Shown here: positions 12,461 to 14,758 of the stretch, in pieces | Position numbering within the stretch: the stretch's first letter is position 1 | Layout of the letters: each line of letters starts with the position of its first letter | DNA from: Saprospiraceae bacterium | Lineage (GTDB): Bacteria; Bacteroidota; Bacteroidia; Chitinophagales; Saprospiraceae | Assembly: GCA_029252685.1 (NCBI GenBank) | Contig: JAQXAY010000102.1 | Coordinates: forward strand, 1 to 32,219 | Length of the DNA: 32,219 nt | Reading direction: 5' to 3' | The notes under the pieces: generated by a model | The model's input: only the letters and a program-made list of their open reading frames with translations | Databases searched by the model: none | What the model was told of the DNA's origin: nothing | Position numbers and translations under genes: made by a program

Positions 12461-13984
12461 ATGGCTAAAACACCTTCACTATCACTAAGAAACCTAATAA
12501 ACGCGCTTACCGGGAGTGAAAAAAGATATTTCAAACTCTATGTTGGTGAGAAGATTGAAAAAGAAAGTAAATACCTGATACTCTTCGATTTAATCGACCA
12601 AGGAATCATCCAAGATGAAGATGAATTGAAGCAGGCAGTTTATGAAGGTGACATCGGAGAAAGCCGAAAATTCTCTGAGCTAAAATCCTATCTTTTTGAA
12701 CTTATTTTAAGGGCACTTCAAGCTTACGATACGAAGGGCAATGTCAATATTCGATTACAAGAATTACTGCAAGGCACTCAGGTACTTTTCAGAAGATCTT
12801 TATTCAAAGAAGCAAGACAGAATCTTGGTAAAGCAAAAAAATTGGCCTCAAAATATGAGGAGCATCTACTTTTACTAGAAATTATACGTTGGGAAAAAAA
12901 GATAGCATACGCATTGACGGATATAAAATTCCTGGACGAAGAACTAGAGAACCTAGAGCGTGAAGAACGTTATCACCTCGCACAATATCAACTTAGAACA
13001 AGATATAGAAATACGTTCTTCAGACTACTAATCAACATTCGAAAGCAAGGACCAGGATCTGGGCAAGGTCAGCACTTACAACAGCTAGTAACATCTATAA
13101 AAAGGTTAGTTCTTCCAAAAGAAACAGGGCATAACACAAAGGTCATCTTTTATAGATTAATCTCTATGCAAAAGTATATAGAAGGTGATATTGAAGGCTT
13201 CATAGAGACCAATATCTTATTGATGAAACTGCTTGAATCAGAACCACACTTCTTAAAGCAAGAAGTTTCTGAATACATATCGGTAGTAAACAATCTATTG
13301 ATTGGATATGGGACACTAGAAAATTTTGACAAGGTACTTATGCTTCTGGAAAAGTTCAAAACGATCAATGCAATAACTACAGATGATGAGCTTAAAATCC
13401 ATCGTCAATATTACATGAACCTATTCGCTTATTACATACATACAGGTGCTTTCGACGATGGGATTGAAGCATTCAAGGAGCATCAAAAATTCATAAAGAA
13501 AAACAAATCGCAAAGCTTCCTTAAACATTCCTTCTACTTCCAATACTTTTACCTACACTTTGGTGCGGCACAATTTGATTTAGCATTACAATATCTGAAT
13601 GATTGGCTTGACTTAAAGGCAAATACAGAGCGACACGATCTTCAAGCTTTAGCAAGGATATTGAACCTTCTTATTCATAAAGAAATGGGCAACACTATCC
13701 TTATTCATTCATTAACAAGGTCTGCTACTCGATTCTTGAATAAGAACAGTAAACCATCAAAATACGAGGAAGCTGTATTAAAATATTTCAGACGTAGCAT
13801 CAATTCAGTAGACCGTTCGGATGAGATTCGAAACTTAGAAACGCTTCTGAATGATATAAGAAAAATAAAGTCAAATAGGATAGATAATAATATTATGAAC
13901 CTATTTGACATGGAAAGCTGGGTGATTTCTAAGTTGAAGAATATTCCATTTATGGAATTAAAAAAACAACAGACTAGGCTGTAA
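12461..13984 (+). CDS. conserved all-helical protein, function unknown
   Basis: This protein of 507 residues has no signal peptide and no membrane segment. Its composition is rich in Leu, Lys, Glu and Tyr, and it is predicted to be almost entirely helical. The opening LRNLINALTGSEKRYFKLYV segment looks like the start of a protein family I recall in many Bacteroidota as hypothetical. Several stretches (for example LFKEARQNLGKAKKLASKYEEH, read in two parts around residues 113-135) resemble TPR-like helix pairs, suggesting a scaffold. No catalytic motif is visible. It stands alone, with its stop 12 bp from the convergent leader-peptide gene. Confidence 0.75.
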   Translation: MAKTPSLSLRNLINALTGSEKRYFKLYVGEKIEKESKYLILFDLIDQGIIQDEDELKQAVYEGDIGESRKFSELKSYLFELILRALQAYDTKGNVNIRLQELLQGTQVLFRRSLFKEARQNLGKAKKLASKYEEHLLLLEIIRWEKKIAYALTDIKFLDEELENLEREERYHLAQYQLRTRYRNTFFRLLINIRKQGPGSGQGQHLQQLVTSIKRLVLPKETGHNTKVIFYRLISMQKYIEGDIEGFIETNILLMKLLESEPHFLKQEVSEYISVVNNLLIGYGTLENFDKVLMLLEKFKTINAITTDDELKIHRQYYMNLFAYYIHTGAFDDGIEAFKEHQKFIKKNKSQSFLKHSFYFQYFYLHFGAAQFDLALQYLNDWLDLKANTERHDLQALARILNLLIHKEMGNTILIHSLTRSATRFLNKNSKPSKYEEAVLKYFRRSINSVDRSDEIRNLETLLNDIRKIKSNRIDNNIMNLFDMESWVISKLKNIPFMELKKQQTRL

Positions 13985-13996
13985 AAAGCATTTAAT

Positions 13997-14221
13997 CTAT
14001 CTGCGGTTTCCTTTGCCAATTGACCCTAAAGCCCTTCCAATATTGACACTGTTTTTCTTGATTGGCCTGCGAACCTCAACCTCGCCCCATATCTTAGATT
14101 TCTTTCCCAATTCAATAAAATTAAAAAGTCCATTAGGAGCATAGCCACCTTTAGCTTTTTGCTGATCTGCTGAACTTAATTCAAATTTCTTTAGTGTGTT
14201 TAGTGTTTGTTCATTTTTCAT
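13997..14221 (-). CDS. double-glycine leader peptide, bacteriocin or natural-product precursor-like
   Basis: This 74-residue protein looks like a GG-type precursor. An N-terminal leader of about 26 residues ends FELSSADQQKAKGG, with the acidic and helical pattern and terminal Gly-Gly recognised by C39-peptidase ABC exporters. The remaining 48 residues form a basic core (NSVNIGRALGSIGKGNRR at the end) rich in Lys, Arg, Gly and Asn. The core has no Cys, which argues against lanthionine or disulfide types. It resembles the short GG-leader precursors described in Bacteroidota. No peptidase-exporter, maturase or immunity gene is in the window, so it is an orphan here. It lies 69 bp after recX on the same strand. 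Confidence 0.65.
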   Translation of the reverse strand: MKNEQTLNTLKKFELSSADQQKAKGGYAPNGLFNFIELGKKSKIWGEVEVRRPIKKNSVNIGRALGSIGKGNRR

Positions 14222-14290: not shown

Positions 14291-14758
14291 TCAGTCTTCA
14301 AGATTCCTAAAACTCTGTACCTCATCGTAAGTAAACCCTTTATTATTTAAGAAAACAACAATTTTCCTATTCAATAAATAAGGCTCCATATTTTTATAAT
14401 CTTGTTCTACTTTTTTCACCCAATGCCTAATATTCTCCATATTCATAGATGGATCAAGCTCCTCAAAACCCTTCCGAATACAATATTCAGAGATCTGTCT
14501 AGCTTTTAGTTGGCCTACAATCTTCATCTTTCCCCAGCGTTTAATTCGAGCTTTACCTCTTACATAGGCACGCGCATAACGCTCCTCATTTAGGAAACCT
14601 TCGCTAATAAGTGAAGAAATTACATGTTCAAGATCGTCTCCATAAACATTTAGTTTAATCAACTTATTCCTAACCTCCTGGTGACAGCGCTCCTGATAAG
14701 CGCAATAGTGTTGCAGCTTTATAATGGCTTGCTCCTTGGTTATAGATGACTCACTCAA
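14291..14758 (-). CDS. recX: regulatory protein RecX
   Basis: RecX binds RecA filaments and limits recombinase activity. This 155-residue protein has the three repeated three-helix units of the family. Unit 1 contains KLQHYCAYQERCHQEVRNKL, the middle unit has the hallmark SEGFLNEERYARAYVRGKAR, and KRWGKMKIVGQLKARQIS leads into the third. The start is TTG at 14758; no ATG exists before the conserved first helix. It lies 11 bp after the TrpF-like gene on the same strand, probably in one transcript. recA is not in the window. Confidence 0.93.
   Translation of the reverse strand: MSESSITKEQAIIKLQHYCAYQERCHQEVRNKLIKLNVYGDDLEHVISSLISEGFLNEERYARAYVRGKARIKRWGKMKIVGQLKARQISEYCIRKGFEELDPSMNMENIRHWVKKVEQDYKNMEPYLLNRKIVVFLNNKGFTYDEVQSFRNLED

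Follow-up and report, generated by a model that had tools for sequence, protein, structure and literature searches.

Background

The closest described counterparts of the locus studied here are the RRNPP systems of Firmicutes (Rap, Rgg, NprR, PlcR and PrgX). According to the available part of a survey that covered complete Firmicutes genomes (PMC10075063), their signature consists of a small propeptide of 10-100 aa, its secretion by Sec (PptAB in SHP and PrgQ), a receptor of 250-500 aa that contains TPRs, and adjacency of the two genes. A second point of reference is provided by peptides with double-glycine (GG) leaders, which are substrates of C39-peptidase ABC transporters. The recognition residues described for known C39 substrates are L-12, E-8 and L-7, and V-4, L-7 and L-12 dock in a groove (PMC6363468, as far as the text was accessible). 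A link between the two kinds of system is described in the consulted portion of PMC7595303, where pneumococcal Rgg144 induces the neighboring GG peptide VP1. In Bacteroidota, peptide signalling seems to be little described, as judged from our literature searches.

Here we analyze a small peptide gene and its neighbor orf507 in a contig of 32,219 nucleotides from a Saprospiraceae bacterium (assembly GCA_029252685.1, contig JAQXAY010000102.1), hereafter the window. An earlier note on this DNA had described the peptide as an orphan GG precursor with an acidic leader and a cationic, Cys-free core of 48 residues, had suggested a secreted antimicrobial or signalling peptide matured by a transporter encoded elsewhere in the genome, and had proposed searches for homologs, C39 transporters and further GG-leader genes.

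Peptide gene and its genomic locus

The features of the locus are listed in Table 1. The peptide gene and orf507 are convergent, with their stops only 12 bp apart. By direct reading, the leader is charged, lacks a hydrophobic signal stretch and ends in GG; it carries L-12, D-8, Q-7, A-4 and K-3, and its five K against three D/E do not make it notably acidic, so that this element of the earlier description is withdrawn. The length of the core (48 residues) and its lack of Cys were read as described before. Searches of the window peptide against Pfam and NCBIfam returned no family at E<=10, and scans for sigma-70 promoters and terminators gave nothing beyond chance level.

Table 1. Features of the peptide locus, with positions in the window
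Feature	Position	Strand	Basis or remark
GG-leader precursor peptide gene, 74 aa	13997..14221	-	ATG-start ORF; orthologs; dN<dS
Leader, residues 1-26, C-terminal KAKGG	14144..14221	-	Direct reading
Core, residues 27-74, N-terminal YAPNG, no Cys, net charge +8	14000..14143	-	Direct reading
Core motif IWGEVEVR, residues 44-51	14069..14092	-	Longest invariant core stretch in three congeners
orf507, 507 aa, BT2802 superfamily, helical TPR-type	12461..13984	+	Candidate partner, putative receptor
recX	14291..14758	-	Pfam RecX domains; next gene upstream of the peptide, same strand

The homolog search returned orthologs with 59% and 46% identity at the matching position, beside recX, in both congeners. 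The three congeners share the invariant stretches LKKFELS in the leader, KGGYAP at the junction and IWGEVEVR in the core, and the closer congener pair has a dN of 0.33 and a dS of 0.98 (Nei-Gojobori). By the same method, dN was below dS in all 18 pairs examined, both over the whole gene and in the core, while two of these pairs did not show it for the leader alone. A strict GG-leader rule was passed by 59 of the 61 selected peptides but by none of 88 control ORF neighborhoods and none of 305 mononucleotide-shuffled stretches of 700 bases. The family profile A3, described below, matched the window peptide in its own genome at E 2e-12. Conservation, the dN/dS relation, the control ORFs and the shuffles rule out a chance ORF; on these comparative grounds we regard the ORF at 13997-14221 as a real, conserved and translated gene, and its earlier assignment as a GG-leader precursor holds.

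Pairing of the peptide with orf507

A profile built from the three congeners detected distant members only weakly. At two loci from other genera (L034 and L040), distant GG peptides lay tail-to-tail with a homolog of orf507, and orf507 was therefore searched across the family; at L036 and L038 other GG-leader ORFs occurred away from orf507, and the remaining translated loci obtained with this profile looked unrelated. Among 248 genomes of the family, orf507 orthologs (defined by E<=8.3e-90) were found in 67 genomes of 37 genera, and paralogs gave much weaker matches with about 24-33% identity. A convergent GG-leader ORF adjoins orf507 in 62 of these 67 genomes, representing 35 genera, at distances of -19 to +298 bp. 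The other five comprise three contig ends (G002, G226 and G228), one genome with the peptide on a different contig from orf507 (G013) and one with the peptide 1.2 kb away and another ORF in between (G256).

The peptides beside orf507 orthologs were compiled into a profile of 62 rows (A3), which includes the separated peptide of locus L086 and leaves out those of L079, L113 and L196-L198. At E<=2.6e-6, A3 had a match in 66 of the 67 genomes with an orf507 ortholog and in none of the 181 genomes without one. Since A3 was trained on the positives and its E cut was set after the results had been seen, the former count is partly circular and the latter is the informative half, for peptides similar enough to be reached by a profile that would miss very divergent ones. 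The sole ortholog-bearing genome lacking a match was G228, where the ortholog lies at a contig end. At E<=0.001, leader-only matches (6e-5 to 8e-4) appeared in five of the 181 ortholog-less genomes (G016, G057, G201, G235 and G283).

No leader-like convergent neighbor was found at 49 superfamily loci, namely 20 paralog loci of the family (18 near the top of the matches listed, one in the window genome and one in a congener) and 29 loci taken phylum-wide, which include two from the same family (L160 and L161) and three partial orf507 matches (L149, L156 and L159). Among the phylum-wide loci, one unrelated GG ORF was located 669 bp away. On the other flank, as far as the DNA was read, recX was seen at just 33 of the 63 peptide loci, which rules out a constant link; recX is a frequent but not constant neighbor and probably stands outside the system. 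Because this flank is not fixed, the peptide and orf507 are kept together while other neighbors change. The peptide is thus no orphan: it forms with orf507 a conserved, near-obligate gene pair across one family of Bacteroidota.

Family and predicted fold of orf507

orf507 matches NF058569 (BT2802 family ribose utilization protein) over residues 7-499 with an E-value of 3.8e-47 and 161.4 bits, the cut-off being 550. As judged by these scores, it is a distant relative within the NF058569 superfamily and not a member of the BT2802 family proper, the name of which reportedly comes from work on how Bacteroides utilizes ribose. Some genomes contain up to seven BT2802-superfamily matches. More of these proteins are encoded in the window genome (G000:C201:91-1563 and G000:C117:2037-3533), the former at a locus where no convergent leader-like ORF was found. 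At L103 (G120), L106 (G209) and L108 (G148), orf507 is repeated in tandem, and one peptide gene follows the final copy.

Near-duplicates were left out of the sequence sets used for comparison, A4 retaining 64 of 68 ortholog sequences and A5 60 of 66. The window orf507 itself had no match in Pfam, and none among PDB sequences by phmmer at E<=1; in the orthologs, TPR_14 was detected in 21 of 64 sequences (best E 9.8e-7) and TPR_2 in 14 of 64, at E<=0.1. The AlphaFold model is all helical, with a pLDDT of 87 and a pTM of 0.84. Foldseek against the PDB gave just three matches at E<=0.001; the best were large eukaryotic TPR assemblies and LGN, the latter ranked above Rap from pLS20, which took rank 9. 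When the Foldseek candidates were re-ranked by VIA-align, the first ten rows consisted of nine Rap structures and one NprR (Z 17.7-19.1). The eukaryotic TPR protein LGN followed at Z 17.3, and AimR stood at Z 15.1; since differences in Z of less than 1 count as ties, LGN is level with the lower-scoring Rap structures. Considering that helical repeats often give high scores and that LGN is nearly equal, the likeness to Rap and NprR is taken as a lead and not as proof of function.

The N-terminal domain has the lowest mean column entropy of the regions compared, in orthologs and paralogs alike. Searched alone, it gave no fold match at E<=0.001 and a best VIA-align Z of 5.2, and for this reason we neither claim nor exclude a DNA-binding domain. 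Positions conserved only in the orthologs include R232, D309 and Y362; eight such positions fall on presumed inner helices of the TPRs and three on outer ones, according to the helix order in the AlphaFold model. This bias is a weak hint that the ortholog group may have a ligand peculiar to itself.

Proposed peptide-receptor system

We propose that the two genes form a communication module composed of a C39-exported peptide signal and a dedicated cytoplasmic TPR partner, orf507, a reading to which we assign a probability of about 0.5. The steps, as we infer them, would be the following. The peptide would be synthesized as a GG-leader precursor, and an unlinked C39-peptidase ABC transporter with its HlyD partner would cleave it after GG and export a core of about 20-56 residues, the working part of which may be the W-x-x-[VI]-[DE]-[IV]-R stretch. 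Next, the peptide, whole or as a fragment, would re-enter or be read inside the cell; in these didermal cells, re-import assumes passage across two membranes. orf507 would act as the dedicated intracellular partner, most likely as the peptide receptor, and binding of the peptide in the TPR groove would act on the conserved N-terminal domain and alter its output, which is probably gene regulation. A broader version of this proposal, held more tentatively, is that Bacteroidota possess a clade-wide system in which a C39-exported GG peptide is sensed by a dedicated intracellular TPR receptor, so that a logic resembling RRNPP might have arisen or been retained outside Firmicutes, with the double-glycine route replacing Sec.

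The main rival is that orf507 regulates the peptide gene without being a receptor, and that the exported peptide acts elsewhere, in the manner of VP1 under Rgg144. We consider it rather unlikely, although the gene-pairing logic is the same, with the adjacency of Rgg and a GG peptide reported in the accessible part of PMC7595303 as a precedent, and the conserved N-terminal domain is common to paralogs that have no peptide. The ortholog-specific R232, D309 and Y362, with the bias toward presumed inner helices, weakly favor a special ligand and hence speak for the receptor.

A peptide tied so tightly to one TPR protein amounts to a named candidate ligand-receptor pair. No published description of the pair was found within our partial coverage of the literature, and the pairing suggests a peptide signal with its sensor that has so far not been described.

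Leader conservation and C39 transporters

The leaders of the 62 family members are dominated by a few positions. K occupies position -3 in 58 members and L position -12 in 48; these two vary far less than the core does, GG itself being a selection rule. V, A or I is found at -4 in 47 members, whereas -8 is less uniform, with E in 23 and D in three, and -7 is mostly non-hydrophobic, with Q in 32 and L in just seven. Position +1 is Y in 32 members.

The window genome encodes two C39 ABC transporters that exceed the cut-off, both away from the peptide locus, in agreement with the expected transporter elsewhere in the genome. Both were read to contain the DCGIAC, NH and DP motifs, which we presume to have their usual roles in C39 transporters. 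The transporter gene on contig 158 is followed by an HlyD gene, and no adjacent HlyD gene was noticed by eye for that on contig 190. The stretches of 20 kb and 12 kb inspected around these genes contained no leader-like GG precursor; three GG ORFs were present, none of them leader-like by eye. Three models returned no further GG-leader genes in the window genome: A3 gave no second good match there, and two known leader models gave none, a weak negative since these two miss the window peptide too.

Across the family, 65 of the 67 genomes that carry an orf507 ortholog encode C39, compared to 88 of the 181 that lack one. Nine genomes combine the pair with a single C39 match. In all eight of them that were examined, the transporter is nearer to the contig 158 type, with 39-44% identity against 30-33% for the other type, and has HlyD beside it, with no leader-like precursor by eye. 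Many genomes that lack the pair likewise carry the contig 158 type, which is thus not pair-specific. Upstream of the C39-HlyD transporter, two genomes contain lipase-like and small sterol-carrier-like genes, as classified by eye (L026:6852-8100 and L205:382-1557).

These data bear on the possibility that the peptide is never exported and serves as a small intracellular partner of orf507, with GG having a structural role. Near-strict pairing, the mostly non-hydrophobic -7 position and two C39-negative genomes that carry orf507 (G002 and G228) would fit such a partner. We nevertheless judge it improbable: both C39-negative genomes are just 87-89% complete, C39 is enriched in carriers, K-3 and L-12 are held far more strictly than the core, and leaders from relatives score above the cut-off set for an established GG-leader family (see below).

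Core sequences and the nature of the peptide

The cores vary considerably. W is found in 54 of 62 cores, and a W-x-x-[VIL]-[DE]-[IVL]-R type motif is recurrent; 32 cores have a WxxIDIR-like pattern, 15 a WT-type pattern and 15 neither. Genome G226 encodes a second GG peptide (L198:1583-1747) with a core of 22 residues that carries VDWTAVDTR at its C-terminus, and no orf507 homolog was present in the 3.5 kb read around it; the presence of this stretch in so short a core suggests that it marks the working part, or minimal motif, of the peptide. The net charge of the cores has a median of +1 and ranges from -5 to +8, with values <=0 in 26 of 62. The window core, at +8, is therefore a family maximum, common to two other members, and the cationic character noted earlier applies to the window peptide while family cores are not consistently cationic.

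These charges bear on the possibility that the peptide is a bacteriocin-like toxin of class II, for which orf507 would serve as regulator or immunity factor. The GG leader and the strongly cationic window core would suit a toxin, and a bacteriocin was considered as the first choice but set aside as the charge is not conserved. In addition, the peptide is present in 66 of 67 carriers, mostly as a single strong A3 match in a stable place, and no immunity gene was noticed next to it. The toxin is accordingly rated as very improbable, and of the two roles suggested in the earlier note, signalling is favored over killing.

The leaders of many relatives resemble those of known precursor families: 23 of 62 match the pinensin leader model NF038180 at E<=0.1 (best 4e-12), and 13 of 62 match TIGR04149. 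Several exceed the curated NF038180 cut-off of 24 bits, the best reaching 45.8 bits. A RiPP precursor matured by enzymes encoded elsewhere, for instance a pinensin-type lanthipeptide, is suggested by these matches yet very unlikely, given that Cys occurs in just two of 62 cores, the window peptide itself matches neither model, and neither a recurring maturase gene nor LanB or LanC enzymes were noticed in the surroundings of the peptide. For the window peptide, lanthipeptide identity is ruled out by its Cys-free core.

Precursors with Cys-free cores that pass the NF038180 cut-off include L100:1418-1633, L055:3051-3311 and L111:1893-2102. The NCBI pinensin leader model thereby scores Cys-free peptides as lanthipeptides, and database entries for such precursors probably carry the wrong name.

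Comparison with known systems

The resemblance to the pinensin family (NF038180) is confined to the leaders of those relatives that exceed its curated cut-off. Lanthionine is impossible in 60 of 62 cores because they contain no Cys. The protein orf507 belongs to the same superfamily as the BT2802 family (NF058569), to which it aligns over residues 7-499, but it differs in its score, 161.4 against 550 bits, and in its peptide, as the 49 superfamily loci checked had no leader-like convergent GG ORF.

Like the C39/PCAT substrates described in the available part of PMC6363468, the family has L-12 and V/A/I-4 in most members and GG at -2/-1, and the genome encodes a C39 ABC transporter together with HlyD. 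It departs from them in that the transporter is unlinked, Q is the commonest residue at -7 and K stands at -3. From these substrates and from the GG peptides CSP and BIP, named in the sections of PMC7595303 at hand, the family is further distinguished by a recurrent core motif and by a TPR protein beside the gene instead of a two-component system.

The closest parallel is with RRNPP, where a small propeptide gene likewise adjoins the gene of a TPR-type protein roughly 500 aa long (accessible parts of PMC10075063 and PMC7595303). The propeptide, at 74 aa, falls within 10-100 aa; orf507 orthologs show TPR signatures and orf507 is modelled as a helical repeat; the genes are direct neighbors in 62 of 67 genomes; and Rap and NprR come first in the VIA-align comparison. 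The differences lie in the host, which belongs to Bacteroidota, in the export route, which by direct reading is probably C39 double-glycine export and not Sec or PptAB, in cores of up to 56 aa, and in the lack of a sequence relation to any solved RRNPP receptor in the phmmer search of the PDB. At 507 aa, orf507 also lies just over the receptor bound of 250-500 aa. With the leader read as double-glycine where the signature has Sec, and with this marginal length, the pair is not classed as RRNPP; in propeptide size, TPRs and adjacency it agrees with the signature, and we propose that it works like an RRNPP system.
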